Below, piece after piece: positions 1 through 14,954 of a stretch of 14,954 nt of DNA. Location: positions 1 to 14,954 of the forward strand of contig CANGMV010000004.1 of the NCBI GenBank assembly GCA_947454745.1, in the 5' to 3' direction. Source of the DNA: Bacteroidota bacterium (lineage in GTDB: Bacteria; Bacteroidota; Bacteroidia; Chitinophagales; Chitinophagaceae). The notes beneath the pieces were generated by a model. The model had not been told where the DNA came from, did not search any database, and was given only the letters and a program-made list of their open reading frames with translations. The translations under genes and the position numbers were made by a program. Position 1 is the first letter of the stretch. Each line of letters opens with the position of its first letter.

Positions 1-579
1 ATGTTAAAAATCCAAGAAGAACGTGTTACCATGAGCATTTATGACTTTGCTTTAAAAGGTAAACATAATGCCTATAATACAATGGCAGCAAGCATTGCAG
101 CTACTACTTTAGGTATTCGAAAGGAAAAAATTCGCGAAGCGGTAAGCAATTTCCATAGCTTGGAACACAGAATGGAATTTGTAGCTACTGTCCGCGGTGT
201 TGATTTTATCAATGACAGTAAGGCAACGAATGTGAACAGCACTTGGTATGCTTTAGAGAGTATGCAAAAGAAAACCGTTCTTGTTATTGGCGGTGTCGAC
301 AAAGGAAATGATTACTCATTAATTGCAGAACTAGTAAAAGAAAAAGTGAAAGCAATTGTATGCATGGGTACTGACAATAAGAAAATAATAGAATTTTTTA
401 AAGATATCGTTCCTGTAATTGTGGAAGCGGACAGTGCTAAAAAAGCAGTTACAGAGTCATTTAAGATTGCTGAAAAAGGGGATGTAGTCTTATTAAGTCC
501 TGCATGTGCGAGTTTTGATTTATTTAAAAATTATGAGGACAGGGGTCGTCAATTTAAAGAGTCTGTAAAAGAATTATAA
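1..579 (+). CDS. murD: MurD, UDP-N-acetylmuramoylalanine--D-glutamate ligase (C-terminal part)
   Basis: This is the C-terminal part (192 residues) of the cytoplasmic ATP-dependent ligase that adds D-glutamate to UDP-MurNAc-L-alanine in peptidoglycan precursor synthesis. Full MurD is about 450 residues, so the N-terminal UDP-binding domain and the ATP P-loop lie left of the window. The ATG at base 1 is an internal methionine and not a start. Visible Mur-ligase features are GKHN (residues 20-23, end of the central ATPase domain), LEHRMEF (54-60), NDSKATN (71-77, typical of MurD), a GG-DKG segment near 97-102, SPACASFD (166-173) and DRGRQF (180-185). The NDSKATN and SPACASFD motifs separate MurD from MurC, MurE and MurF. 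The stop lies 2 bases before the ftsW start, which fits co-transcription with the division genes. Identification is firm; only the N-terminus is unseen. Confidence 0.96.
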   Translation: MLKIQEERVTMSIYDFALKGKHNAYNTMAASIAATTLGIRKEKIREAVSNFHSLEHRMEFVATVRGVDFINDSKATNVNSTWYALESMQKKTVLVIGGVDKGNDYSLIAELVKEKVKAIVCMGTDNKKIIEFFKDIVPVIVEADSAKKAVTESFKIAEKGDVVLLSPACASFDLFKNYEDRGRQFKESVKEL

Positions 580-581
580 TC

Positions 582-1910
582 ATGTTTAATCAAAATACGG
601 ACAAATTATTTTCGCAGATGCCAACGATAAGTGGCGTTAAGGAGCATTTGGATCAAAGAACCAGAGGTGATAAATACATATGGGGGTTGGTACTTGTATT
701 GTCGCTTGTTTCTATATTGGTAGTATATAGTGCAACAGGTTCCTTGGCTTACAAATCGCTTAGCGGAAATACGAGTAAGTTTTTGTTTAAACAAATGGGT
801 TTTACAATGGTTGGCCTGGTACTTATTTTTGCATTACACCGAGTGAACTATACTATGTTCTCCCGTATTGCATCTATTTTATATGCTTTATCTATTCCTT
901 TATTAATTTATACTTTATTTTTTGGAGCCAAAATTAATGATGGAAGTAGGTGGATCAAATTGCCAATCATTCACTTGACATTCCAAACAAGTGATTTGGC
1001 AAAGTTGGCTTTGTTTATGTTTATCTCAAGAACATTGAGTAAAAAGCAAGAAGTAATTAAGGATTTCAAAAAAGGATTTTTACCCGTTATTATTCCAGTA
1101 TTAATTACCTGCGTATTAATCATGCCCGCGAATTTGTCGAATGCACTTTTAACGGGTGCGACTTCGTTATTATTAATGTTTATTGGGCGTGTCAGTTTAA
1201 AACATATTGGTTTAACTATTTTGCTGGCAATGGTTCCAGTGTTGATTTTAATCAGCGTAGCAATGGCTACACATAAAGCGGGCAAAGTATCGAGTAATGA
1301 GGAGGATAAACCCGTTGTAGCTGAGAAAGCAAAAATATTTGTTCGTTTTAATACATGGGTAAGTCGTATTCAAGACTTTATGTATCCCAATGAAAAGGAA
1401 GTACCTTATCAAGTGCAACAGGCTAAAATTGCTATTGCGAATGGAGGTATTTTGTTTGGCCTTGGCCCGGGTAACAGTCGTCAAAGAAACTTTTTACCAC
1501 AAGCGTATAATGACTTTATCTATTCCATTATTATTGAAGAATATGGATTAATAGGAGGTGCTTTTATCATGTTTGTATATTTAGTATTCTTATTTCGATG
1601 CATAAGAATATTCCGAAGATGTCCTTATGCTTTTGGCGCCTTCTTGGCATTAGGATTAAGCTTTACGCTCATTATACAAGCCATTGCAAATATGGCCGTG
1701 AATGTAAATTTAGTACCTGTAACAGGGGTGACATTGCCTTTGGTGAGCATGGGTGGTAGCTCGTTTATTTTTACTTGTTGTTCCATTGGATTGATATTGA
1801 GTGTGGCAAGAAACGTTGAGCAGTTAGAAGGTAAAGCACCTGAAGAAACTGAAATTGAAATTCCTGAAGAAACTGAAACAGATCAAAATCCAATCCCAAG
1901 TAATGCCTAA
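582..1910 (+). CDS. ftsW: FtsW, septal peptidoglycan glycosyltransferase (SEDS family)
   Basis: This is an integral inner-membrane SEDS polymerase that makes septal glycan strands from lipid II, working with a class B penicillin-binding protein. The 442 residues contain about ten hydrophobic segments. The family signature begins at N374 (NVNLVPVTGVTLPLVSMGGS), as is typical of FtsW/RodA. D311, in the YNDFIYSIIIEE loop after LGPGNSRQ, aligns with the catalytic aspartate known as Asp297 in E. coli FtsW. A charged insert of roughly 20 residues (around 229-250) sits before that loop. The C-terminal tail of about 25 residues is acidic (repeated EET/EIPEE). Its position between murD and murG supports FtsW rather than RodA. 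The start at 582 lies 2 bases after murD, and the last 8 bases overlap murG. No Shine-Dalgarno sequence is seen. Confidence 0.95.
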   Translation: MFNQNTDKLFSQMPTISGVKEHLDQRTRGDKYIWGLVLVLSLVSILVVYSATGSLAYKSLSGNTSKFLFKQMGFTMVGLVLIFALHRVNYTMFSRIASILYALSIPLLIYTLFFGAKINDGSRWIKLPIIHLTFQTSDLAKLALFMFISRTLSKKQEVIKDFKKGFLPVIIPVLITCVLIMPANLSNALLTGATSLLLMFIGRVSLKHIGLTILLAMVPVLILISVAMATHKAGKVSSNEEDKPVVAEKAKIFVRFNTWVSRIQDFMYPNEKEVPYQVQQAKIAIANGGILFGLGPGNSRQRNFLPQAYNDFIYSIIIEEYGLIGGAFIMFVYLVFLFRCIRIFRRCPYAFGAFLALGLSFTLIIQAIANMAVNVNLVPVTGVTLPLVSMGGSSFIFTCCSIGLILSVARNVEQLEGKAPEETEIEIPEETETDQNPIPSNA

Positions 1911-3015
1911 ACAATTACGAATCATAATAGCAGGTGGCGGCACTGGAGGGCATATCTTTCCAGCGATTGCTGTTGCCCAGGCGATACAAAAAATACAGCC
2001 AAGTGCTGCTATTTTATTTGTTGGGGCGAGTGGTAAAATGGAAATGGAAAAAGTGCCACAAGCAGGGTATAAAATAATAGGTTTAACCATTGCAGGATTG
2101 AATCGATCCAATATGTTTAAGAATTGGAATTTGCCTTTTAAATTAATAAAAAGTTTTTTTCAAGTTCGACAAATATTTAACCAGTTTAAACCCAATGCTG
2201 TATTTGGTGTAGGAGGGTATTCAAGTTTTCCAGTTTTGAAATTTGCACAAGCAAAGCATATTCCCACATTTATACATGAGTCAAATGCATTTGCAGGAAA
2301 GTCTAATCAATGGTTAGGAGCCAATGCAACTAAAATATTTACAGGCACCAAAGGAATGGAGGCGTTTTTCCCGGCAGAAAAAATTCAAGTGACAGGTAAT
2401 CCAGTTCGACAAAATATAATTGAAGCGGCTTATAGTAAAGAAGCAGCTTTATTAAAATTTGGTTTAATGCCGAATCGTAAAACGGTATTAATCATAGGAG
2501 GAAGTTTAGGAGCTGCTTCTATAAATAAAGCAATTCAAGATCATTTGGAAACCTTTGCAAATGATGCTATTCAGTTAATTTGGCAAACGGGTAAGCCGAA
2601 TGCGTTGGCTTATGCAAAATCGGCTGAGTCTTTTTCCAATGTTTTCGTGGATTCGTTTATCGATGATATGAGTGCTGCATATACTGCTGCAGATATAGTG
2701 GTGAGCCGATCGGGTGCGATGGCGGTTGCGGAAATTTGCATAACGGGTAAGCCTGCTGTTTTTGTGCCTTATCCATTTGCTGCAGAGGATCATCAAACAT
2801 TTAATGCCATGCAATTGGTAAAAGAAAATGCAGCATTAATGGTAGCGGATAAAGAGGTAAGTGTAAAGTTATTGCCTACCATTTTGCAAATGGTAAAGGA
2901 TGATTCAATGACCATTCAAATGCAAAATAAAATAAAATCTTTTGCATGGCTCGATGCAGACAACGTAATTGCGGAGTCGATTCTACATTCAGTTGAAAAT
3001 TCAAATTCCTTATAA
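1903..3015 (+). CDS. murG: MurG, UDP-GlcNAc:lipid I N-acetylglucosaminyltransferase
   Basis: This is a peripheral inner-membrane GT-B glycosyltransferase (370 residues) that adds GlcNAc to lipid I to give lipid II, the substrate of FtsW. The N-terminal domain shows the glycine loop GGGTGGH (residues 11-17), GVGGYSSFP near 102-110, and HESNAFAGKSN from H125. The C-terminal UDP-GlcNAc-binding domain shows GGSLGA (199-204), WQTGK, SRSGAMAVAE (268-277) and AAEDHQTFNA starting near 293. An in-frame ATG exists upstream at 1855, but it would put 56 bases inside ftsW and add 16 lysine- and glutamine-rich residues ahead of the first beta strand. The ATG at 1903 gives the normal MurG length and N-terminus (MPKQLRIIIAGGG). 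It overlaps the ftsW stop by 8 bases, suggesting translational coupling. Confidence 0.96.
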   Translation: MPKQLRIIIAGGGTGGHIFPAIAVAQAIQKIQPSAAILFVGASGKMEMEKVPQAGYKIIGLTIAGLNRSNMFKNWNLPFKLIKSFFQVRQIFNQFKPNAVFGVGGYSSFPVLKFAQAKHIPTFIHESNAFAGKSNQWLGANATKIFTGTKGMEAFFPAEKIQVTGNPVRQNIIEAAYSKEAALLKFGLMPNRKTVLIIGGSLGAASINKAIQDHLETFANDAIQLIWQTGKPNALAYAKSAESFSNVFVDSFIDDMSAAYTAADIVVSRSGAMAVAEICITGKPAVFVPYPFAAEDHQTFNAMQLVKENAALMVADKEVSVKLLPTILQMVKDDSMTIQMQNKIKSFAWLDADNVIAESILHSVENSNSL

Positions 3016-3026
3016 AATAGTTTTAC

Positions 3027-4388
3027 ATGAATCCGTTAACCAATATCAAAAACATTTACTTTATAGGCATCGGCGGGATTGGTATGAGTGCACTAGCTAG
3101 GTATTTTAATACCCAGGGTGTTATAGTTTCGGGTTATGATAAAACACCAACTGCTTTAACCGACGATTTAGTAAAAGAAGGGATTAAAATTCATTTCGAA
3201 GACGATATCAATCAAATAGATAAAGCAGCAACAGTAGTGGTATATACGCCCGCTATTCCTGCTTCACATAGCGAGTTGAACTATTGCAAGGACAATGGGT
3301 ACAATGTAGTAAAGCGAAGCGATGTATTAAATTGGATTACCGAAAATGCATTTACCATTGCGATAGCAGGTACCCATGGAAAAACAACGACTACTTCCAT
3401 GACTGCACATATTTTACGTCATTCCGGTTATGGTTGTAATGCATTTCTAGGAGGCATTGCTTCTAATTATGGCACCAATTTTTGGAGTCATGAAAAAAAT
3501 GTAGTGGTAGTGGAGGCAGATGAATATGATAGAAGTTTTTTAAAGTTAGCACCTAATATTGCTGTAGTTACTGCCGTAGACCCCGACCACTTAGATATTT
3601 ACGGTACTCCAGAGGAAGTATTAAAAGCATTTGGACAGTTTACGGATAAGATTAAAAATGGTGGAACGCTGATCCAAAAAATGGGAACCGAATTTTCAAT
3701 TGATGCGACTAATAAAAAGGTGTTCACATATGGTTATGATAAAGACAATGCTTCTTATCACACAGCAAATTTAAAAGTGGTAGATGGTTCTTATTTATTT
3801 GATGTAGTGCATCCTGCTGGCATGATGAAGGATGTGGTATTGAATATGGGTGGATTACACAATGTAGAGAATGCAACTGCAGCAATAGCGATTGCACTTA
3901 CATTGGGTATTGAAGAGCAAAAAATAAAAGAGGCAGTTGCTGCTTTTAAAGGAGTGAAACGCCGTTTTGAATACAAAGTAAAAACAGCGAACCAAGTTTT
4001 GATCGATGATTATGCGCATCATCCGGAGGAATTAAATGCTTTAATTAGTGGAGTCAGAAGTTTGTATCCTAATGAAAAAATGGTACTTATTTTCCAGCCA
4101 CATTTATATAGTAGAACACAGGATCAAGCAGCTGGATTTATGGAAGTAATGGATAAAGCCGATGAAGTTATTTTATTGCCTATTTATCCTGCAAGAGAAT
4201 TGCCAATCGAAGGCGTAACAAGTGATATGTTGTTGGCAGGAATGAAATTAGCGAAAAAGCAAGTTATGAGTAAAGAAGCCTTGTTGCAATGGGCTGCTCA
4301 TAACAAGGACAAGGTGGTGGTAATGGCAGGTGCAGGAGATATTGATGTTTGCATTAATCAAGTTCAAGAAATATTTACCCAATTATAA
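3027..4388 (+). CDS. murC: MurC, UDP-N-acetylmuramate--L-alanine ligase
   Basis: This is the cytoplasmic ATP-dependent ligase that adds L-alanine to UDP-MurNAc, the first peptide step of peptidoglycan synthesis. At 453 residues it has the usual length. The N-terminal Rossmann-like domain opens with GIGGIGMSALARYF. The ATP-binding loop is GTHGKTTTT from G115. The central domain shows EADEYDRSF (163-171) and a DPDHLDIYG motif. The GGLHNVENA segment closes the ATPase domain. The C-terminal domain has GVKRRFEY, DDYAHHPEE (327-335) and FQPHLYSRT. The DDYAHHP motif and the GIGGIGMS opening are specific for MurC over MurD/E/F. It starts 11 bases after murG, and its stop shares one base with the ftsQ start (TAATG), so ftsQ is probably translated by re-initiation. 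Confidence 0.97.
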   Translation: MNPLTNIKNIYFIGIGGIGMSALARYFNTQGVIVSGYDKTPTALTDDLVKEGIKIHFEDDINQIDKAATVVVYTPAIPASHSELNYCKDNGYNVVKRSDVLNWITENAFTIAIAGTHGKTTTTSMTAHILRHSGYGCNAFLGGIASNYGTNFWSHEKNVVVVEADEYDRSFLKLAPNIAVVTAVDPDHLDIYGTPEEVLKAFGQFTDKIKNGGTLIQKMGTEFSIDATNKKVFTYGYDKDNASYHTANLKVVDGSYLFDVVHPAGMMKDVVLNMGGLHNVENATAAIAIALTLGIEEQKIKEAVAAFKGVKRRFEYKVKTANQVLIDDYAHHPEELNALISGVRSLYPNEKMVLIFQPHLYSRTQDQAAGFMEVMDKADEVILLPIYPARELPIEGVTSDMLLAGMKLAKKQVMSKEALLQWAAHNKDKVVVMAGAGDIDVCINQVQEIFTQL

Positions 4389-5470
4389 TGAAGCGCTGGA
4401 AATACATATTAGAAAGGGTTTTGTGGTCTATTGCTGCTATAGGACTGGTAGTGCTTTTTGTATTTGCTTGGCAGGCAAAATCGGTAAAGAAATGTACAGG
4501 CATTCAAATTGAATTAGCAGGTACTGCATCGGGGTACTTGTTTATGGATGAGAAGGAAATTATGCGACTTATTAATGAACAAGGTGTGCATGTGGGAACA
4601 CCGGTTGGCAGTATTAATTTAAATAAAATTGAGCAATCCTTGGCACAAACCCAATGGATTGCAAAAACAGATATTTACTTAGACAATCAACAACAATTGC
4701 AAGTAAAAATTGAACAAAGAATTCCTATAGCAAGAGTTTTTACCGCATCGGGCAATTCGTTTTATATTGATAATGTGGCACAAAAGTTACCACTAAGAAA
4801 TTTATCTGTGATGCGCTTGCCGGTATTCACAGGCTTCCCGTCGGATCAAGAAAAATTAGCAAAACCAGATAGTTTGCTACTACAAGACATACTTCATTTT
4901 GCAAAAATCATACAACAGGATAGTTTTTATATGGCCCAAATAGCGCAGGTAAATATTGCGGCGAACGGTGACTTTGAAATGATACCAACTTTGGGGGATC
5001 ATCTTGTATTGATTGGTTCCATGGAAAATATCGAAGACAAATTGAATCGTTTGTATACATTTTACAAAAAGGTTTGGATTCCATCAGGTATTAATGCTTT
5101 TCAGGTGTTGGATGTTCGATTTGATCATCAAATAGTAGCCCTTAAAAAAGGGATGCAGCCTATTCAATATGCTCCTGGAGCTTTGCCTTTTATTCAACTA
5201 GGAAATATTGCAGATTCTACATTAAAAGCAGATACAGTTAAAGTAGGAAAACCTGTCCCAGTGGCAGCCGTAAAAACCGATAGTGTTGTTAAACCAGTAG
5301 CGGTTCCACCTGTAGTTGTAAAAACAAAGCCAGCTGCAAAAATTGTGAAGCCAGTAGCTAAAAAAACAAGCCCAAAGCCAAACAATAAAGCGAACAATAA
5401 ATCGTTAAATAAAATGAAGAAGACTGCGAAGGCAATTTTGCCTAAAAAGCCTGCTTCCAACAACAACTAA
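4388..5470 (+). CDS. ftsQ: FtsQ/DivIB-type cell division protein with basic C-terminal tail
   Basis: This is a bitopic inner-membrane division protein; in known systems FtsQ links the early division ring to the late septal synthesis complex. The assignment rests on position (between murC and ftsA) and architecture: a short cytoplasmic N-terminus, one membrane helix at about residues 8-28, then a POTRA-like segment (about 38-105) and a beta-rich periplasmic region up to about 260. FtsQ proteins are poorly conserved, so motif evidence is modest. Unusually, the last 79 or so residues (from D282) form a low-complexity tail rich in lysine, proline, valine, alanine and finally asparagine, which would lie in the periplasm. 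It overlaps the murC stop by one base. A 48-base spacer separates it from ftsA. Confidence 0.88.
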   Translation: MKRWKYILERVLWSIAAIGLVVLFVFAWQAKSVKKCTGIQIELAGTASGYLFMDEKEIMRLINEQGVHVGTPVGSINLNKIEQSLAQTQWIAKTDIYLDNQQQLQVKIEQRIPIARVFTASGNSFYIDNVAQKLPLRNLSVMRLPVFTGFPSDQEKLAKPDSLLLQDILHFAKIIQQDSFYMAQIAQVNIAANGDFEMIPTLGDHLVLIGSMENIEDKLNRLYTFYKKVWIPSGINAFQVLDVRFDHQIVALKKGMQPIQYAPGALPFIQLGNIADSTLKADTVKVGKPVPVAAVKTDSVVKPVAVPPVVVKTKPAAKIVKPVAKKTSPKPNNKANNKSLNKMKKTAKAILPKKPASNNN

Positions 5471-5518
5471 ACAACGGATCAACGAAATAACAACTAATCA
5501 ACTTAAAAACTATAAGAA

Positions 5519-6919
5519 ATGAGTCAGCACGATTCTCCTATCATTGTAGGCTTAGACATTGGAACTACTAAAATTGCAGCCATTGCAGGTCGCAAAAACG
5601 AATTTGGTAAACTAGAAATCTTAGGATTTGGACGCGCCAATAGCAATGGAGTACAACATGGCCAAGTGTTGAATATTGACCAAACTATTAAAGCGATTCA
5701 GCAAGCATTGGAAAATTGCCAAAAAAGCAATCCTGATTTAGAAATCAACGAAGTATATGTAGGTATTGCAGGTCACCATATTAAGAGTTTACAAACTCGT
5801 GGTGATATGGTAAGACAGGATGCTGAAAACGAAATTCAAGCTTGGGAAATTGAACAATTAATCAATAACCAACGTAAAACCTTTATTCCAGCTGGAGATC
5901 AAATTATTGATGTGATCCCTCAGGAGTTTTATGTGGACAATAACCCAAATGTAAAAGAGCCAGTGGGTGTGAACGGTGTAAAAGTGGGTGCAAATTTCTT
6001 GATTTTAACAGGAGATAGAAATGCAATCCGCAACATTAACCGTTCGGTTGAAAGAAGTGGTTTAACAACAAAGGATTTGGTTTTACAACCTTTGGCATCG
6101 GCTAGTGCGGTAATGAGCGATGTAGATTTGGAAGCAGGTGTTGCTATTTTGGATATTGGTGGTGGTACAAGTGACCTTGCTGTATTTTATGATGGCATTT
6201 TAAAACATACTGCTGTGATTCCTTTTGGTGGTGAAAATATTACACATGATATCCGTTTAGGATTGGGTGTGTTAAAGAGCCAGGCCGAAGCGATGAAAGT
6301 ACAGTTTGGTAGTGCTTTAGCCGACGAAGCAAAAGCAAATGCCTATGTGACTATTCCTGGTTTAAAGGGAATGCCTGCAAAAGAAATAAGTGTAAAGAGT
6401 TTGGCTGGAATTATCCAGGCAAGAATGAGTGAAATCTTAGATTTTGTAACATATCATTTAAAGCAGGTAGGTTTAGATAGCCGTATGTTAAATGGTGGTA
6501 TCATTTTAACAGGTGGAGGCTCACAATTAAAGCACTTAATTCAGTTAACAGAATATACAACAGGCTTAAATGCTAGAGTGGGCTTGCCTAATGAGCATTT
6601 AGCGCCCAATCATATCGACGAATTAAAGAAACCAATGTATTCAACATGTATTGGTTTGATATTAAAAGGCTATAACGATTACGAGCAAAATTATAAGGTA
6701 TTTACAGAAACCTATAAGAAGGTGGAAGTGCCAAGAGCATTGACCGTGGAAGCGCCTATAAAGCAAGCTGCACCTCAACAATCTGGCTTTAAGGCAGAAC
6801 CTGCTCCGACTACTTTAACAGCTGAACAAATCGAAAAAAGAAAGAGCAAATTCTGGGATCGTTTCAAAACTAATTTAATAGAAATTTTTAGTGAAGAAGA
6901 CGATAAATTATTGCCATAA
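5519..6919 (+). CDS. ftsA: FtsA, actin-like membrane anchor of the FtsZ ring
   Basis: This is a cytoplasmic actin-family ATPase that tethers FtsZ polymers to the inner membrane and recruits later division proteins. In its 466 residues the phosphate-1 loop is GLDIGTTK (11-18). The FtsA-specific 1C domain follows (about 80-165, including DVIPQEFYVDN), then the phosphate-2 motif LDIGGGTSD (211-219), the GGENIT segment, and the adenosine motif LTGGGSQL. The last 24 residues (443-466, SKFWDRF...IEIF) form an amphipathic helix with aromatic and basic residues, as expected for the membrane-targeting sequence. A proline/alanine/glutamine-rich linker of about 40 residues precedes it, which explains the length above the usual 420 or so. 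It lies directly upstream of ftsZ with a 106-base spacer. The start at 5519 has an A-rich leader and no Shine-Dalgarno sequence. Confidence 0.97.
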   Translation: MSQHDSPIIVGLDIGTTKIAAIAGRKNEFGKLEILGFGRANSNGVQHGQVLNIDQTIKAIQQALENCQKSNPDLEINEVYVGIAGHHIKSLQTRGDMVRQDAENEIQAWEIEQLINNQRKTFIPAGDQIIDVIPQEFYVDNNPNVKEPVGVNGVKVGANFLILTGDRNAIRNINRSVERSGLTTKDLVLQPLASASAVMSDVDLEAGVAILDIGGGTSDLAVFYDGILKHTAVIPFGGENITHDIRLGLGVLKSQAEAMKVQFGSALADEAKANAYVTIPGLKGMPAKEISVKSLAGIIQARMSEILDFVTYHLKQVGLDSRMLNGGIILTGGGSQLKHLIQLTEYTTGLNARVGLPNEHLAPNHIDELKKPMYSTCIGLILKGYNDYEQNYKVFTETYKKVEVPRALTVEAPIKQAAPQQSGFKAEPAPTTLTAEQIEKRKSKFWDRFKTNLIEIFSEEDDKLLP

Positions 6920-6936
6920 AATTACCCACATTATGG

Positions 6937-6965
6937 TTATAAAATTTCTACCTAAAATTTTATAA
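6937..6965. repeat. AT-only inverted repeat upstream of ftsZ
   Basis: Perfect 11-base arms TTATAAAATTT (6937-6947) and AAATTTTATAA (6955-6965) flank a 7-base loop in the ftsA-ftsZ spacer, 60 bases before the ftsZ start. It could be an operator-like site, a weak transcript-end hairpin, or simple AT-rich coincidence. It lacks the G/C-rich stem of a strong terminator, so some readthrough from ftsA to ftsZ is likely. Confidence 0.4.
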
Positions 6966-7025
6966 ATAGAGTAATTTCGACGATACTAACAACTAACTGT
7001 ACTAACCCATTTAAAAAACAAAAGA

Positions 7026-9041
7026 ATGATTCAATTTGACTTACCCAAGCAAAAATCATCCATCATCAAAGTCCTAGGCGTTGGTGGTGGCGGTAGTAAT
7101 GCCGTGAATTTCATGTTTCATCAAGATATTGAAGGTGTAGATTTTATCATATGTAATACCGATTCTAAAGCCATTGAACAAAGTCCTGTTCCTAATAAAA
7201 TTCAATTAGGGCCCCATTTGACGCAAGGATTGGGTGCGGGTGCTGATCCTTCGGTTGGGAAATTAGCAACTGAAGAATCTTTAGAAGAAATCAAAAAAAT
7301 ATTAGAGGTGAACACCAAAATGGCTTTTATCACAGTCGGAATGGGCGGTGGTACTGGTACAGGTGGTGCACCTATTATTGCAAAAATTTGCAAGGATTTA
7401 GGCATTTTAACAGTGGGTATTGTTACCACTCCATTTGGCTTTGAAGGACCACGTCGTCAAAAACAAGCCGAAGAAGGTATCAATCAATTAAAGCCATTGG
7501 TAGACACTTTATTGGTGATTTCAAACGACAAATTGCGTGTGCAATATGGTAATTTGAAAATGAAGGAAGCATTCACTAAAGCAGATAATGTATTGGCAAC
7601 TGCTGCAAAGTGTATCACGGATGTAATTAATAGTCGTGGTCATATTATTGTAGACTTTGCTGACGTTTGTACTGTAATGAAGAATGGCGGTGTCGCAATT
7701 TTAGGTAAAGCTGAAGTGGAAGGAGATAATAGAGCACAAAGAGCGATTGAAGAAGCCTTAAATTCACCATTGTTAAATGACAATGATATTAAGGGAGCAA
7801 AATGGATTTTATTAAATATCAATAGTGCCGAAGGTGATTTTGAATGTAGCATGGACGAATTGGAAACAATCAGCACTATTTTACGTGAGCGCACTGGTGA
7901 GCATAGTGATGTTATTATGGGTAGTGGTTATGATGATACCTTGGGTGAGAAAATTGGTATCACATTAATTGCAACTGGCTTTGAAGGAAAAGATCCATTC
8001 AAAAAAGAAGAACCAAAACAGGAAGAAGCACCCATCGAAGAAAAAGTAGTAATGACATTAACTACCGAAGCACCAGCTACAAAAGCATCGGAAGATAATT
8101 CACCTTCTTTTAATTTTGGAGGGCATACAGCAATGGAAAATGAAACTCAATTTGTTTTAGATACAGCGGTTGAACTTCCAGTTGCAGAAGAGAACGTGGC
8201 AGTGATTGATGAAAGTAAAAATGAAGATGCTGCAGAATATGCTAGCTTAACAATTGAGGCTGCTGAAACATTAGAAGCTTTGAATTTGACTCCTACATTA
8301 ATAGTTGAGGAGCCAATAATTGTTTCCAATGTATTCGTGGAAGCTCCCGTAGCTGAAGAGACTTTGGCTGATTATACTTTTGAGGAAACACCAGCTGAAA
8401 GTGCAGATGTATTTGAATTAAATATGGAGGCTGAACCAACAGTAGATTTTGCATCTGCATTTGTGTTAAGCAAGCCAACTAATATTTATGCCGAAGCGAA
8501 CGAAGAGAACGCGCCAGCGTTCGATGAAAGCGAAAATGTAAATGCGTTCGATGAAAGCGAAAATTTAAATGCGTTCAAAGAAATAGTGAATGAAGTTGCT
8601 CCAGTAGTGGAAGCACCTGTTGTAGAAGCAGAATTGCCCGCTGAAAATTTCCAAACATCATTTAGAGTTGCTATCGAAGAAGAGCCAACAATGCAGTTGG
8701 TAATGCGTGAGGAAGAGCATGTGCATACAAATGATAATGGAAGAAAAACAAACACGCAAAATTTTGATATGCCTTTAGATGATTCTGAAGAGCAAAGAAG
8801 AAAGGTGCGTGAGCGTATTCAAAAATTAAGAAATTTATCTTTCAATATTGGTAATGGCAACGACCCAAGCGCAGAGTTTGATGAAGTGCCTGCTTATGTT
8901 AGAAGAAACATGGATTTGTTTGGTAATACTTTAGCTTCAGTTGAAAACTATTATAGCAAGTACACTGTCGAACAGGATGAAAATAACCAAACGCAAATCT
9001 CAACCATCAATACATTCTTAGATGGCAAGAAGCCTGATTAA
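7026..9041 (+). CDS. ftsZ: FtsZ, tubulin-like division GTPase with very long C-terminal linker
   Basis: This is the cytoplasmic GTPase that polymerises into the division ring. The GTPase core is residues 1 to about 323. It has GGGGSNAV near 20-27, the tubulin signature GGGTGTGG (107-114), PFGFEGPRR (136-144), and the T7 loop VDFADV with catalytic aspartates D210 and D213. The core is followed by an acidic, low-complexity linker of about 295 residues, rich in glutamate, alanine, valine and proline. E. coli has a linker of about 50, so this is exceptionally long. A basic segment EEQRRKVRERIQKLRNLSF precedes the conserved tail peptide DEVPAYVRRN (619-628), which binds FtsA. A further 43 residues follow the peptide. 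The total of 671 compares with about 380-450 in most bacteria. A strong terminator follows 32 bases after the stop, so ftsZ ends the cluster. Confidence 0.97.
   Translation: MIQFDLPKQKSSIIKVLGVGGGGSNAVNFMFHQDIEGVDFIICNTDSKAIEQSPVPNKIQLGPHLTQGLGAGADPSVGKLATEESLEEIKKILEVNTKMAFITVGMGGGTGTGGAPIIAKICKDLGILTVGIVTTPFGFEGPRRQKQAEEGINQLKPLVDTLLVISNDKLRVQYGNLKMKEAFTKADNVLATAAKCITDVINSRGHIIVDFADVCTVMKNGGVAILGKAEVEGDNRAQRAIEEALNSPLLNDNDIKGAKWILLNINSAEGDFECSMDELETISTILRERTGEHSDVIMGSGYDDTLGEKIGITLIATGFEGKDPFKKEEPKQEEAPIEEKVVMTLTTEAPATKASEDNSPSFNFGGHTAMENETQFVLDTAVELPVAEENVAVIDESKNEDAAEYASLTIEAAETLEALNLTPTLIVEEPIIVSNVFVEAPVAEETLADYTFEETPAESADVFELNMEAEPTVDFASAFVLSKPTNIYAEANEENAPAFDESENVNAFDESENLNAFKEIVNEVAPVVEAPVVEAELPAENFQTSFRVAIEEEPTMQLVMREEEHVHTNDNGRKTNTQNFDMPLDDSEEQRRKVRERIQKLRNLSFNIGNGNDPSAEFDEVPAYVRRNMDLFGNTLASVENYYSKYTVEQDENNQTQISTINTFLDGKKPD
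8517..8576 (+). repeat. 27-base tandem repeat inside ftsZ linker
   Basis: Two units (8517-8543 and 8544-8570) differ at only one base (GTA versus TTA), and a partial third unit begins at 8571 (GCGTTC). Each unit encodes AFDESEN(V/L)N in frame. The near identity at the DNA level points to a recent slippage or unequal-crossover duplication. The unit length is a multiple of three, so the FtsZ frame is kept. Confidence 0.93.
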
Positions 9042-10065: not shown

Positions 10066-10398
10066 GGTATTTTGTTCCTTTTCCCACATTAACATGTTAT
10101 AACCGGTACACCAAATTGAATATGTAATATATTTCATATTCATTAATGTATTATATATCAATGTAATACAAGAGTTAACTAGGTAATGAAAATTTCTTAC
10201 TAGAATTATTTCTTCACATTAAAATGTGATGTTACATTACGTTATAAAATAATAACTCGATTTAGTCATGTATAAGTAGTTGGTTATTAGAATTAGCTCT
10301 GCGGTACAATCAAAGTTCCGGAGTGCTCTGACAAGAAACCACTGCTTCCAAATGGGGAAATCGATAATTACTTACGTGATATAAAAAAATAACCTAGT
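10066..10398. other. 333-base AT-rich intergenic region upstream of the motor-like operon
   Basis: No credible gene is seen. The left two thirds is extremely AT-rich with several short inverted repeats: TAACATGTTA (10090-10099), TCACATT-AA-AATGTGA (10214-10229), and a hairpin CTAGgTAA...TTACTAG (10179-10203, one bulged G). ATGTAATA occurs twice (10122-10129 and 10161-10168). From about 10296 to 10360 the base composition becomes clearly GC-richer. No TAnnTTTG promoter element was found in front of the next gene, so its promoter is unassigned. Confidence 0.6.
10293..10367 (-). other. GC-richer island: possible gene relic (minus strand) or structured leader
   Basis: Read on the minus strand, a 24-codon stretch ends in a stop (TAA, complement of 10293-10295) and reads like a protein C-terminus, finishing SGFLSEHSGTLIVPQS. 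An in-frame stop lies just upstream (complement of 10368-10370) and there is no start codon, so this is not an intact gene. Read on the plus strand it would lie in the leader of the GldL-like gene. The AGTG/CACT and GGA/TCC complementarities (10321-10350) could form a modest stem. Neither reading is proven. Confidence 0.25.
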
Positions 10399-11883
10399 AT
10401 GATGAACAAAGGGACTAGCGCTAAAAAATTAGATATTCTTAACCTATTCTATAGTTTAGGTGCAGTAGTTATTTTGCTTGGTGTAATTGCAAAATTACTT
10501 GAATGGGAGGTACAAGACATATTTATGACTGTAGGTCTTACGATGGAAGCAATTGTATTTGGCGTTTCATCTATTAAGTATATTAACAAGGATCAAAGCA
10601 TAGAAAAAACAGAATTTGTAGTTGATAATCAATTCCATCATGAAGAGATTGCAGTAGCACCGTTTGAAACGGAGAAAGTAAATGATCAACTCATACATAG
10701 CTATGTGTTACCTCAAACTTTTCAACAAGATGAAGTACTTCCATTTAATTCAAAATCCTTCCCCCAATCGGATAGTACACATCAAATTAATGTTCCTACC
10801 GAACAATTTGCCCCAGATTTATTATGGCAGTTGGACAAGTTGGGCATTATTTCGTTCCCAAAAGATATTTTTTACCAACCTGAATGGGTTAGTTTAAATG
10901 AACAAGAATACCAGATGGTTTCACAATTATTTCTAGACCTTTTTGGTAAAAAAGTAGTACCTCAAAAAAATATACCACTATTAAAGTCCTATGAGATACG
11001 CTTACCAGAGTCGGGAATTGGGGAACTTGTTATTGAGCAGCCAGTAGCGCTTACAAACGATGCTTTGAAAGTGTTATTAATGGCATTTAAGCCTTATAGA
11101 TACAAGGGCTTCTTTGATCAATTTGTACTTTATAATGAGGGCGATGTAAATTATATAAGATCTGCTAATACAAATGAAATTCAAGTATATGTAGGAGAGC
11201 ATGGGGCCTTAAACAACTATTGTAGACTATTCCATGCAAATGAATTGGTTGTTAGCCCTGCTTTAGATTTTTTAGCTCCATTTATTAAGATGAAGAATGA
11301 AATCTTACTTGATTATATCATTAAAAGATTTGACAAGCATAATTGGAAGGCTTATGAGTTAATGGTACAGATTCTATTTGATAAAAATGATCCAACTAAA
11401 ATATTCTTTTTAGATAAATTAAAATCAGTGGAATATGTGAGTGATGATAAAGATTCCATTAAAATCGTTCAAAATGTAATTCAGTTATTGGCAAGTTTTA
11501 CTAATAAAAATGTTGCTAAAGATATATTTGGTAAGCTATTAATTATTCCGCAGATAGGAATGAGAGATTTTAGGTTAGAAGAAAGATTGAATTTTTCTGG
11601 TTTAAAAGTGTCCGTTACCGAAGACAAATACTTTGAATTAAATGACCTTTTTAATAGCGTATATCTTAATAATACCGAAATTTTCAACCAGTTGCTAGAA
11701 AAGCTAATTGCTTTGAAGTTTATTAGTAATGATATTGTAGCTGATTTGTTTAATGCGAACCAAGAGGATACAGTTAAAGAAATTTTCAATAAGTACACCA
11801 ATTATATTAACAAATACCAGGTAACCCCCAGTGCCCTGCAATTGGAATTTGCTTTACTAAGTAAACAAATTTTAAGTAAATAA
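10399..11883 (+). CDS. Divergent GldL-like motor stator protein with enlarged cytoplasmic domain
   Basis: This is an inner-membrane protein of 494 residues. Two membrane helices (about 14-32 and 41-60) match GldL/PorL, the stator ring of the proton-driven type IX secretion/gliding motor. The pattern FYSLGAVVILLGVIAKL and GLTMEAIVFGVSS aligns with GldL. Y18, K32 and E50 match the residues I recall as Tyr13, Lys27 and proton-path Glu49 in Flavobacterium GldL. Known GldL is about 215 residues. Here the part after residue 65 is about 430 residues: a charged, glutamine-rich linker (65-145), a mixed alpha/beta region (about 145-300) and a helical C-terminal region (about 300-494). I recognise no family in it, and the usual short coiled GldL tail is not evident. 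Either ATG at 10399 or 10402 could start it. A GldM-like gene follows after 18 bases, as in gldL-gldM operons, but no gldK lies upstream. Confidence 0.8.
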   Translation: MMNKGTSAKKLDILNLFYSLGAVVILLGVIAKLLEWEVQDIFMTVGLTMEAIVFGVSSIKYINKDQSIEKTEFVVDNQFHHEEIAVAPFETEKVNDQLIHSYVLPQTFQQDEVLPFNSKSFPQSDSTHQINVPTEQFAPDLLWQLDKLGIISFPKDIFYQPEWVSLNEQEYQMVSQLFLDLFGKKVVPQKNIPLLKSYEIRLPESGIGELVIEQPVALTNDALKVLLMAFKPYRYKGFFDQFVLYNEGDVNYIRSANTNEIQVYVGEHGALNNYCRLFHANELVVSPALDFLAPFIKMKNEILLDYIIKRFDKHNWKAYELMVQILFDKNDPTKIFFLDKLKSVEYVSDDKDSIKIVQNVIQLLASFTNKNVAKDIFGKLLIIPQIGMRDFRLEERLNFSGLKVSVTEDKYFELNDLFNSVYLNNTEIFNQLLEKLIALKFISNDIVADLFNANQEDTVKEIFNKYTNYINKYQVTPSALQLEFALLSKQILSK

Positions 11884-11901
11884 GAACTCAATAAGTTTTA
11901 T

Positions 11902-13299
11902 ATGGCAGCAAATGGGAATGGAGCAGATTTAAAGAGAGCGCAAATAGTTACTTTACTGTATATCATATTTGTGTGCTTTTCAGTATTGAATATTAAAATT
12001 TCCATATTGGATTCAAACTCTTATTCTATTAAGTCATTCGAGATATTAGATAAAGAAAATCGGAAAAAAATTGACTTGAGTAATACCATTATTCAGAATA
12101 ATTTAAGTCAGATAGACTCTACAGCAAAAGGACATCAATTCTTGTTAATTAGAACTAGGTTAAATACAAGTTATAATAAAGTAAACGGCATATTGGATTT
12201 AATTAATTCGGAGTTTAAGAAGAAAGGTAAAAACTTGGAAACTGAATTTAATAAACGAAATCTGATTGAAAAAATATTAAAAAGCGAACAAGGGCTCCCC
12301 GTAATTAAGAAAGATTTATTTGATCTGTCAAAATACATCAATGAATCTCCTTACAAAATACCTTCTTACTTAGAAGATTTTGTGCCTATTGCAGATAGCA
12401 TTGTAAACTTTAAGGGGAAAAAGCAATTATGGGACTCCTATTTATTCTTGCATAAGCCAACAGCAATGAGTTATATGCAGTTGGTTAGAATAAAATTACT
12501 TATAACCCATACTCAGTTATTATATCAAGAGGCTGCATTGAAAGAGATTGGTTATTTACCCACTTTTTTCTCAAAGAAAAACCCCGAGTTGTATGAGGTT
12601 AAAAATAATGTTAAGTCAATAACGGAAGAAGCTAAAAAACCGATAGTGAATGCAACTACGGTTGAAGTAAAAAATACTAAAACCAGTGATATTGTTATAG
12701 ATGATATATTTAATAAGATCTTAAAAACAATTCATACTGAAAATATATTTGCTGGGTTAAATACAGTTTTGTTCAGTGATTTTGATTTTGAAATGGGAAA
12801 AGACGTTGATGTTGAAATAACACCAAAGGTAAACGTTTCAAATACCAATAACAGTTTCGTAGCTAATTTCAACAGGGTAGGTGAGTATAATCTAAAATTC
12901 TACGATTTAAGGTCAGGAACAAGAAAACTTCTATTCGAAAAGAAACTAACAGCCAATAAATTACCAGATCCAATATTGAGAGTAAAAGGCGAAAACCTGG
13001 GTAATTTCAATATAAGCACGAAGGATCTTATTAGTTCAGAAAGATTAGAAGCCAGCTTATACATTAATAATTTAAACTACTTCCCAGGAAGAATCAATAG
13101 TTATAGAGTATTAAGGGTACATGGCGGCTTAGATGCTGAATCAGTGATAAATTATGGGGAGATTTTCCAATCTAATACACAAAGATTGATTGCTAGTATT
13201 GAAAAGAATGACTACATCATTTTTGACAATATAAATGTTTCATTAGTAGATGGAACTTCAAGAAAACCACCCCCAATAATGTATAAAATCATCAATTAA
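11902..13299 (+). CDS. Divergent GldM-like periplasmic shaft protein
   Basis: This is a 465-residue bitopic inner-membrane protein, slightly shorter than GldM (about 515). A short cytoplasmic N-terminus leads into one helix (about 13-31). KR-(x)7-Y-(x)2-F-(x)6-N aligns without gaps with the GldM start, with R12 at the place of motor Arg9, then Y20, F23 and N30. Residues 45-220 are helical and include a W177...HKPTAMSYMQLVR...ALKEI segment resembling the helical D1 domain of GldM. A polar linker (about 222-270) is followed by beta-rich domains. The D2 start resembles ENIFAGLN (280-287). A PDP linker lies at 355-357, and the C-terminus (DYIIFDNINVSLVDGTSR) matches the GldM fourth domain. In the known machine, GldM dimers cross the periplasm and transmit proton-driven rotation to GldK/GldN. 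The next gene starts 12 bases later. Confidence 0.8.
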   Translation: MAANGNGADLKRAQIVTLLYIIFVCFSVLNIKISILDSNSYSIKSFEILDKENRKKIDLSNTIIQNNLSQIDSTAKGHQFLLIRTRLNTSYNKVNGILDLINSEFKKKGKNLETEFNKRNLIEKILKSEQGLPVIKKDLFDLSKYINESPYKIPSYLEDFVPIADSIVNFKGKKQLWDSYLFLHKPTAMSYMQLVRIKLLITHTQLLYQEAALKEIGYLPTFFSKKNPELYEVKNNVKSITEEAKKPIVNATTVEVKNTKTSDIVIDDIFNKILKTIHTENIFAGLNTVLFSDFDFEMGKDVDVEITPKVNVSNTNNSFVANFNRVGEYNLKFYDLRSGTRKLLFEKKLTANKLPDPILRVKGENLGNFNISTKDLISSERLEASLYINNLNYFPGRINSYRVLRVHGGLDAESVINYGEIFQSNTQRLIASIEKNDYIIFDNINVSLVDGTSRKPPPIMYKIIN

Positions 13300-13311
13300 A
13301 TATTTTAATAA

Positions 13312-14954
13312 ATGAAGCAACTATATTTACTTTTATTGCTAATGACTTGTGCAAGTTCATTTGTTATTGCGCAGGATACTATTTCTGGTAATTATGAGGA
13401 TTTAGTAATTGCCAAGGGAAGGCATATTATTAATACAATGGTCATTGTTAATAATAGCTTAAAGGTGGATAGTGGTGCCAAAGTGGAATTCATAGATAAT
13501 GGTACTTTAATTTGCGGAGGTCTTGTTGAAATGATTGGTAATAAGTATGACATTGAATTTTATGGTAAGAAAAATGCGGAAGGGGTTGGATTAATCATTA
13601 ACAATAGCAATGAAAGAAGTGTTTTAATTAATAATGTAGTTTTTAGAGGCCTACAAATGCCTTTGTATTTTGATTTTGGTTGGAAAAGAAACTTGGTCTC
13701 CATTACCCATAGTAAATTTGAAAAAAATGTGGGTAAAGTATCCTTATTGCAGGTTTTGAATACACCATTCGGCATAAATGATTCTTTATATGTTCAGTTT
13801 GAACTATCTGATAATATATTTTCAGATAACAAAGCGCCATTGTATTTTGAAGACTTAAAAAGTGATCAAATACATTTCGATATTAATCAGAATGTATTTA
13901 TAAACAATATGATATATGGTTCAAAGACTTATAATATTTCGAACAATATGTTATACGGTCGACTTGATCAAATGTATAAAAAGTTTACACCTACAATTGA
14001 GAGAAATAGTTTCATAAATAACAATTTAATGGACATCTTAACCGATACGATCGTTCATTTGGCCAATATGGGTATTTATGGAACTGAAAAAATGATCATT
14101 TTTAAGAATAACTATTGGGGGGATAATAACAAGTATAAGGTATATGAAGGCATATATGATCAGGAGAAGAATTATGCATTGCCAAAAGTAATTCTAGAGC
14201 CATTTTTGAATCTCCCTTTAAATAATTTGCATGCACATGTTTATAAGATTTTCAATGCAAGGACGGGGAATGAAATTCAAGATACTATTTCACGTATCAA
14301 TGCAATTACATCCTTTACATTTAGGAGCAATAGGCTGATTGATTATTCTAACATGACAATTAAATACGTAAATCTAAAAAACGACACTACATTAATAGAA
14401 ACCGAAGCGCGTGTTAAATATAACTTAACCGTGATGGACAAAAATAATATTAAAGTAGATTTATTAGAACCAAACACCTTTAGTAAAATCGGTGGTTATT
14501 TTCTTTTTCAAAACATGATTGATCCTGAATTTATTCCAATTTCAGATATTAAAATAGGGTATAAAAAGTATTTAGTTAAATATTATTTACAAAAAGTAAA
14601 AATTGATTCTTTGAACAATTTGAAGGGAATGAATGATATTTCAATTAATAAAATTTCCACAACGCCCTTATTTAAAAAATATTTTGAAATTTCAATTAGT
14701 ACAGGAGGCGCAATGTTTACAGGGAGTGTTAGTTCACCCTCCATTTTTGCAAATGAGGTAACCTTAAATAATAGCATTATTGGCAGTTATCATTTTAGTC
14801 GTTCATTAAGTACGTCTCTTATGTTCTCTTATTTTACACTGGGTAATATTGATTCAAGGTCTACTAACTTAGAAGAAGTAGCTAGAGGCTTTCATTTTAC
14901 TACAAAGATGATGACGCTAACCCCAATTGTTCAATTTCGAATTTCTGAAAGCGA
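13312..14954 (+). CDS. Secreted beta-helix protein fused to PorG-like outer membrane barrel (3' end missing)
   Basis: The frame is open for 547 codons to the window edge. A signal peptide (residues 1-20) has a basic start, a leucine core and a VIA|Q cleavage site. Residues about 25-275 show repeating short strands with asparagine ladders, such as LSDNIFSDN, INQNVFINN, ISNNMLYG and IERNSFINNN, ending in NNYWGD (266-271). This is typical of right-handed beta-helices. A beta-rich region of about 180 residues with no recognised family follows. From Y457 onward, FEISISTGGAMFTGS, then IIGSYHFSRSLSTSLMFSY, then a GNIDSRSTN...RGFHFTTK stretch resemble the amphipathic strands of PorG/DUF6089 outer membrane barrels. 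PorG is the type IX secretion protein that holds the GldK/GldN ring to the outer membrane. It lies 12 bases after the GldM-like gene, so it is probably co-transcribed. The PorG similarity is judged by eye. Confidence 0.7.
   Translation, partial: MKQLYLLLLLMTCASSFVIAQDTISGNYEDLVIAKGRHIINTMVIVNNSLKVDSGAKVEFIDNGTLICGGLVEMIGNKYDIEFYGKKNAEGVGLIINNSNERSVLINNVVFRGLQMPLYFDFGWKRNLVSITHSKFEKNVGKVSLLQVLNTPFGINDSLYVQFELSDNIFSDNKAPLYFEDLKSDQIHFDINQNVFINNMIYGSKTYNISNNMLYGRLDQMYKKFTPTIERNSFINNNLMDILTDTIVHLANMGIYGTEKMIIFKNNYWGDNNKYKVYEGIYDQEKNYALPKVILEPFLNLPLNNLHAHVYKIFNARTGNEIQDTISRINAITSFTFRSNRLIDYSNMTIKYVNLKNDTTLIETEARVKYNLTVMDKNNIKVDLLEPNTFSKIGGYFLFQNMIDPEFIPISDIKIGYKKYLVKYYLQKVKIDSLNNLKGMNDISINKISTTPLFKKYFEISISTGGAMFTGSVSSPSIFANEVTLNNSIIGSYHFSRSLSTSLMFSYFTLGNIDSRSTNLEEVARGFHFTTKMMTLTPIVQFRISES

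Follow-up and report, generated by a model that had tools for sequence, protein, structure and literature searches.

A GldL- and GldM-like gene pair followed by a beta-helix/PorG-type fusion gene: a candidate accessory motor in a Sediminibacterium-like bacterium

The question raised by this locus is whether a GldL- and GldM-like gene pair that lies without gldK or gldN, and that is followed by a gene for a beta-helix/barrel protein, encodes the ordinary motor of the type IX secretion system (T9SS) or a distinct machine. The window (the whole stretch of DNA that was analyzed) is one complete contig of 14,954 bases, C4, from a MAG of 1.30 Mb (58% complete, 222 contigs). Bases 1-9041 are filled by a cluster of genes for division and the cell wall (ftsW, murG, murC, an ftsQ-like gene, ftsA and ftsZ, with the end of a Mur-ligase gene in front), after which come a DUF1731 epimerase gene, a gap of 333 bases and the three genes of interest, termed GldL2, GldM2 and bhx. 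The ORF map placed these at 10399-11883 (494 aa), 11902-13299 (465 aa) and 13312-14952 (547 aa, open at the contig end). The gaps between them were 18 and then 12 bases, as a first-pass annotation had described. The coordinates of the trio stop at 14954 because the contig ends there. Neither gldK nor gldN was found within the window. The features referred to below are as follows.

10066..10398, + strand: intergenic gap of 333 bases between the epimerase and GldL2 genes (ORF map)
10399..11883, + strand: GldL2, 494 aa (Pfam GldL_N; AF2 model; top PDB matches GldL/PorL over the TM hairpin)
10546..10548, + strand: codon of the invariant TMH2 glutamate, window residue 50 and P0121 residue 49, which aligns with GldL E49
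11902..13299, + strand: GldM2, with an N-terminal TM helix, a predicted periplasmic shaft and a D4-like tip (Pfam, profile-profile comparison, length)
11935..11937, + strand: codon of Arg12, invariant and placed at the start of the GldM2 TM helix (same R-Y-N spacing in canonical GldM)
12958..13296, + strand: C-terminal D4 domain (tip) of GldM2 (Pfam GldM_4th; hhalign to the canonical D4)
13312..14954, + strand: bhx, truncated at the contig end, with 547 of 701 residues present (complete copy P0165; NCBIfam; AF2 model)
13372..14211, + strand: predicted right-handed parallel beta-helix, P0165 residues 21-300 (model)
14239..14649, + strand: predicted Ig-like domain (310-415) and connecting helix (417-446) (model secondary structure; Ig label assigned by eye)
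14680..14954, + strand: first part of the predicted 8-stranded PorG/OmpA-type barrel, P0165 residues 457-699 (model)

The trio probably has its own promoter upstream of GldL2. The Bacteroidota promoter consensus is TTTG/TAnnTTTG; this pattern had no match in 10066..10398, where no promoter was identified, and across the window it matched at chance level only. A GldM2 homologue with 74% identity (P0021) is labelled Sediminibacterium sp., and the host genus was taken as Sediminibacterium or close kin. A passage in PMC9258536 says that Sediminibacterium is mobile by gliding.

Sequence and predicted structure of the three proteins

GldL2 exceeded the Pfam GldL_N cut-off (2.9e-12; 47 bits against 24), and a profile of its family (alignment A2, comprising 31 of the 44 GldL2 proteins found) matched the GldL structure 7sau in the PDB at 3.4e-7. 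In the AF2 model, which is numbered after P0121 (one less than the window ORF), two TM helices (ca. residues 12-61) were followed by a low-confidence linker (59-138) and a folded, mostly helical C-terminal domain (139-492) that is predicted to be cytoplasmic and is not seen in canonical GldL. The top PDB matches of this model were GldL/PorL, over the TM hairpin. The hairpin carries the conserved TMH2 glutamate, which was E in all 31 rows of A2 and whose motif could be aligned to 7sau; the role of the corresponding residue, E49 of GldL, is taken from a portion of PMC8986121. Against the GldL equivalog of NCBIfam (TIGR03513), GldL2 scored 39.6 bits, below the cut-off of 68.3.

As a single protein, GldM2 matched Pfam GldM_4th over residues 355-463 at 2.2e-4 and 22.3 bits, under the cut-off of 24.6; the score was 24.8 bits in the genome scan and 30.9 bits for a relative (L040), and the cut-off was passed by GldM2 proteins of relatives. 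Its D4 was aligned by hhalign with the canonical D4 over 107 columns (5e-15, probability 98.4). The tip of PorM, also D4, contacts PorN, according to a section of PMC12421860. The N-terminal TM helix of GldM2 bears an arginine at its head: R12, Y20 and N30 were invariant in all 23 rows of alignment A1 (23 of the 120 GldM2 homologues listed), and their counterparts in canonical GldM, R8, Y16 and N26, were invariant in 8 of 8 rows of alignment A4. By profile alone the helix was matched weakly, with residues 10-38 paired with 6-34 by hhalign (probability 22.6, E 9e-4) and an E of 0.11 against PorM in the PDB. D1 and the middle part gave no profile-level detection against canonical GldM, and the length of the protein suggests that it is about one Ig domain shorter. 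The score against the GldM equivalog (TIGR03517) was 16.7 bits, below the cut-off of 180. A cysteine at residue 25 (coding region 11902-13296), within the TM helix, was also present in 23 of 23 rows.

The GldL_N and D4 profile matches ruled out the absence of any GldL/GldM relationship, and the GldL-like and GldM-like labels of the first-pass annotation were upheld by these profile searches.

The third protein was examined through P0165, a complete copy of bhx (701 aa) that is 100% identical over the window part. In its model, a signal peptide is followed by a right-handed beta-helix, an Ig-like domain, a helix and an 8-stranded barrel. The beta-helix running into a PorG-like barrel that had been proposed for this gene was thus recovered, although only the start of the barrel (from ca. 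14680) falls inside the window. The assignment of an 8-stranded outer-membrane barrel is based on the AF2 model and on OmpA-type matches. P0165 matched the NCBIfam PorG model NF052316 over residues 457-647 (1.3e-9) with 38.1 bits, below a 130-bit cut-off that was exceeded by any protein in only 4 of 22 genus genomes, and Pfam DUF6089 was passed by all three full-length bhx relatives tested. An even-stranded barrel places an N-terminal domain in the periplasm as a general rule; bhx is modelled with such a barrel, so its beta-helix would be periplasmic and would face GldM2. Within the beta-helix, Cys68 (P0165 numbering) was conserved in 38 of 38 rows of alignment A3 and may be structural or may link the protein to a partner. 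The C-tail cysteine of PorG bonds to GldK; a cysteine was found in the last 20 residues of 0 of 38 bhx proteins. This observation does not decide the matter for bhx, because most of the PorG-like tails read in the genus lack one as well (10 of 12; the other two have one).

A canonical motor in the same genome and in the genus

Contig C209 of the same genome carries canonical gldL, gldM and gldN in order. Their products scored 88.8, 293.4 and 119.1 bits, respectively, against equivalog cut-offs of 68.3, 180 and 85.9. The curated cut-offs were passed by the C209 pair and failed by the window pair. By sequence, then, the window pair is a diverged paralogue of the type IX GldLM and is distinct from the ordinary motor, as had been proposed; the second, canonical set that was sought is the one on C209, with no gldK found over the cut-off. 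C209 ends just upstream of gldL. Canonical GldK was over its cut-off in 20 of 22 genus genomes chosen by the analyst for the GldK and PorG checks (19 of these 22 carry GldM2), the present genome being among the two without it, and a separate PorG-like protein was found in all 22. GldN was matched in 93 of 101 genus genomes; 92 had one match, and the present genome had two, both partial. A second full GldN copy was never seen across the 101 genomes. Canonical GldN was present in 23 of the 26 genomes with GldM2, and genome scans placed it away from GldM2.

The reading in which the window pair is the ordinary type IX motor, with gldK and gldN merely located elsewhere, draws on the homology of the three proteins to GldL, GldM and PorG. 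It is refuted by the C209 set, unless C209 is a contaminant of the MAG, and the same pattern in relatives, where GldK and a separate PorG-like protein are the rule in the genomes checked, argues against contamination. We consider this reading hardly credible.

The operon and its distribution in relatives

In relatives, the trio forms the start of a conserved operon. Apart from the window, 28 loci with GldM2 (G126 counted once) and two with bhx only (G113 and G049:C343) were read; their genes were labelled by the best BLAST match to reference loci (E up to 1e-5), and Pfam was applied to representatives only. Its genes encode GldL2, GldM2, bhx and a lipoprotein, in many cases AraC regulators, and then a small protein with a sorting tail for the T9SS as well as giant repeat proteins. 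Of 26 loci extending beyond GldM2, 25 had bhx directly after it (G043 copy b did not), and the lipoprotein gene came next after bhx in 22 of 24 loci (not in G043 copy a or G049:C343), with a lipobox visible by eye in 18 of the 19 lipoprotein starts printed. The small protein with a C-terminal T9SS sorting domain (CTD) and at least one repeat ("fibre") gene were found in 19 of the 20 loci long enough to show them, some of the fibre genes counted being cut by contig ends. The exception was G049:C343, in which bhx was present and no lipoprotein, CTD or fibre gene was called in the 4.5 kb after it. In the smallest form (G126), GldL2, GldM2, bhx, the lipoprotein, the CTD protein and one 2,486-aa protein are followed by unrelated genes. 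In five loci (the window, G027, G031, G047 and L037) the operon is found downstream of ftsZ and the epimerase gene, and in the rest it occupies other sites; its order is thus kept at varying chromosomal positions. A search for GldK by phmmer (E up to 10) found none in 26 of the GldM2 loci read and recovered both canonical control loci; GldN was likewise absent by phmmer from these loci, in a set that held no positive control for GldN. The earlier statement that gldK and gldN are missing from the locus therefore holds for the window, and that for GldK extends to the 26 loci searched in relatives.

Two of the small CTD proteins were tested with Pfam and matched Por_Secre_tail (1.3e-7 and 4e-10); the others were assigned by BLAST. 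The complete fibre-type proteins ranged from 612 to 3,572 residues. An N-terminal motif is common to many of them, signal peptides were assigned by visual inspection, and a 26-residue period was found in three of the five tested. No known T9SS tail was present on any of the three giant proteins whose ends were checked, and a PHROGs search returned no tail-fibre match, only one weak unknown family. AraC-type genes, with neighbouring membrane AraC regulators, were common in the operons and absent from the minimal G126 form. In the present MAG no continuation of the operon was found with the sole probe used, the AraC protein of G027, and the window stops inside the third gene; hence no fibre gene was seen in this genome.

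Several further features of these loci were recorded. An ORF of at least 10,011 residues adjoins the operon in G019:C6 (from 25968; L059, L067); its first 3,344 residues contain 16 PATR repeats. Secreted proteins of ca. 510 aa with the FGE-sulfatase fold and a GGRGVR-type end motif occur in tandem, next to a Laminin_G protein, in five loci: G006:C13 (L061:1177-6054) and the corresponding places in G008, G019:C19, G044 and G007 (two, at a contig end). The GldK search of the loci gave no match to these proteins. In G055:C23:1239-2665, GldM2 is broken by an in-frame TAA, possibly a sign that the copy is in decay. In G006, a third GldM form consists of two half-length ORFs with a relationship to canonical GldM (G006:C14:15947-16938, L078).

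GldM2 (profile A1, E up to 1e-12) was found in 26 of 101 genus genomes. The survey of the order that the first-pass annotation had called for yielded it in 2 of 298 genomes, both in this genus, and in none of the 287 order genomes outside it; the trio is not spread across the Chitinophagales genomes surveyed. A bhx protein with the beta-helix part (403 bits or more) was present in 27 of the 101 genus genomes, i.e. all 26 with GldM2 and, among the 75 without it, only G113, whose contig begins inside bhx (Fisher 2.9e-23, with the relatedness of the genomes ignored). Several bhx copies in this survey were cut by contig ends, and the remaining matches to the bhx profile (87 bits or less) were to the barrel only and mostly PorG-sized. 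Of the 26 GldM2 genomes, 24 are of 2.6 Mb or smaller, in a genus that ranges to 4.5 Mb. The two larger ones, G043 and G049, are those with divergent forms. G049 has a short GldL2 (225 aa; 62.7 bits against TIGR03513, cut-off 68.3) followed by GldM2; ahead of the pair are genes for a 3,994-aa protein and a PorP/SprF homologue, and bhx is on another contig. In G043, bhx follows one copy, and a 1,586-aa PKD/CHU_C protein follows the other, which has no bhx after it. These forms resemble intermediate steps from the canonical motor to that of the window, and they link the GldLM2 pair with giant surface proteins a second time. Elsewhere in the phylum, G682:C1 (L143:6615-9129) encodes a compact GldL-like protein (205 aa), a protein that is GldM-like by position (356 aa) and a 218-aa product.

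Candidate mechanism, rival explanations and known systems

We give even chances to an accessory motor and coupler: a diverged, proton-driven GldLM paralogue that would serve a giant surface-fibre system and would be coupled to the outer membrane through a periplasmic beta-helix. By homology to GldLM, five GldL2 and two GldM2 subunits would form a rotating, proton-driven motor in the inner membrane; the GldM2 shaft would cross the periplasm, and its D4 tip would push on the beta-helix of bhx, which would stand in for separate GldK, GldN and PorG parts. That the tip couples directly to the beta-helix is a good inference from the predicted periplasmic placement and the co-occurrence of the two proteins, and it is the simplest account, because no GldK or GldN paralogue was found beside the motor and the barrel carries a large predicted periplasmic domain. 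The force would serve the giant repeat proteins encoded downstream, most likely by moving or deploying them as surface fibres, and the canonical T9SS would export at least the small CTD-bearing partner. The "stand-alone" machine of the first-pass annotation was not supported as worded: canonical T9SS parts are in the genome, and the operon of relatives encodes a T9SS-tail protein and giant secreted proteins, so that the accessory machine probably cooperates with the T9SS. Somewhat short of even, in our judgment, is a self-contained, proton-driven trans-envelope machine that evolved from GldLM within one freshwater genus and drives giant surface fibres directly via bhx with no GldK/GldN ring or track; the locus would then hold a type IX motor that had been duplicated and given a new task, so that fibre movement is set apart from general T9SS secretion.

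The same parts might instead form a dedicated export motor, in which GldLM2 and bhx supply the energy for releasing the giant proteins across the outer membrane, by way of SprA or some other pore, with no later movement. Since the ends of the three giant proteins checked gave no match to a known T9SS tail, the motor might serve export. Very long cargo is also encoded in the operon, together with a PorG-type barrel and a protein bearing a CTD, SprF is unlabelled in the main form, and PorG is described in part of PMC12635249 as indispensable for type 9 export, with a proposed role in transmitting force to the translocon. Nevertheless, no translocon gene was noticed in passing among the operon genes, and the G049 pair is grouped with SprF and a giant protein, an arrangement like that of a gliding locus. 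An 8-stranded barrel is, moreover, too narrow to be an export conduit. An export motor is therefore on the unlikely side, if a serious contender.

Less probable again is that GldLM2 acts as an alternative pillar that drives the GldKN ring or track of the canonical motor, with bhx as an additional track-bound carrier. The D4 fold, which in PorM binds PorN, is kept in GldM2 and could engage canonical GldN, given the presence of GldN in most GldM2 genomes; GldK, too, is present in nearly all genomes checked. A shaft with one Ig domain fewer, as judged by length, would have a shorter reach, however; the strict partner of GldM2 is bhx, not GldN, and the scores fall well short of the equivalog cut-offs. 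A static tether or sensor derived from GldLM would accommodate the new 350-residue domain in the GldL2 model and the AraC-type genes of many operons, but invariant motor residues are unexpected in a dead motor and the AraC genes are missing from the minimal G126 operon, which leaves this possibility very remote.

Compared with GldL/PorL-GldM/PorM of F. johnsoniae and P. gingivalis, the accessory motor favored here shares the TM hairpin with the essential glutamate position, the spacing from the TM-helix arginine, the D4 tip and the L-M gene order. It differs in the additional 350-aa domain predicted for GldL2, in the apparent shortening of GldM2 by about one Ig domain, in missing the equivalog cut-offs, in having no adjoining gldK or gldN and in existing beside a canonical pair. 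With PorG (DUF6089), bhx shares significant sequence homology and, in the model, an 8-stranded outer-membrane barrel, whereas this barrel is fused behind a beta-helix and an Ig-like domain and lacks the C-tail cysteine in all 38 proteins. PorG and SprF ride a GldK-containing track through disulfides in the current model, as outlined in part of PMC12635249. As in the SprB/SprF gliding adhesins, motor genes are linked to genes for giant secreted proteins, and G049 includes a PorP/SprF homologue; in the main form, by contrast, bhx would be the carrier in place of a labelled SprF, and in the three giant proteins with checked ends no CTD was found.

Type IX secretion and the movement of adhesins are both bound up with a single GldLM motor in F. 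johnsoniae (PMC8986121 and PMC12635249), which makes these two functions hard to separate. A second motor with its own outer-membrane coupler and giant cargo would, if real, be a natural separation of secretion from movement and the simplest version of a linkage from shaft tip to outer membrane to fibre. The 5:2 motors MotAB, ExbBD-TonB, TolQR-Pal and AglRQS are one family reused with different envelope partners (in part from a passage of PMC9389320). The locus resembles them, by description, in the reuse of a motor with a new envelope partner and differs in that its motor is GldLM-derived; GldLM, like MotAB and ExbBD, could then be duplicated and re-partnered.
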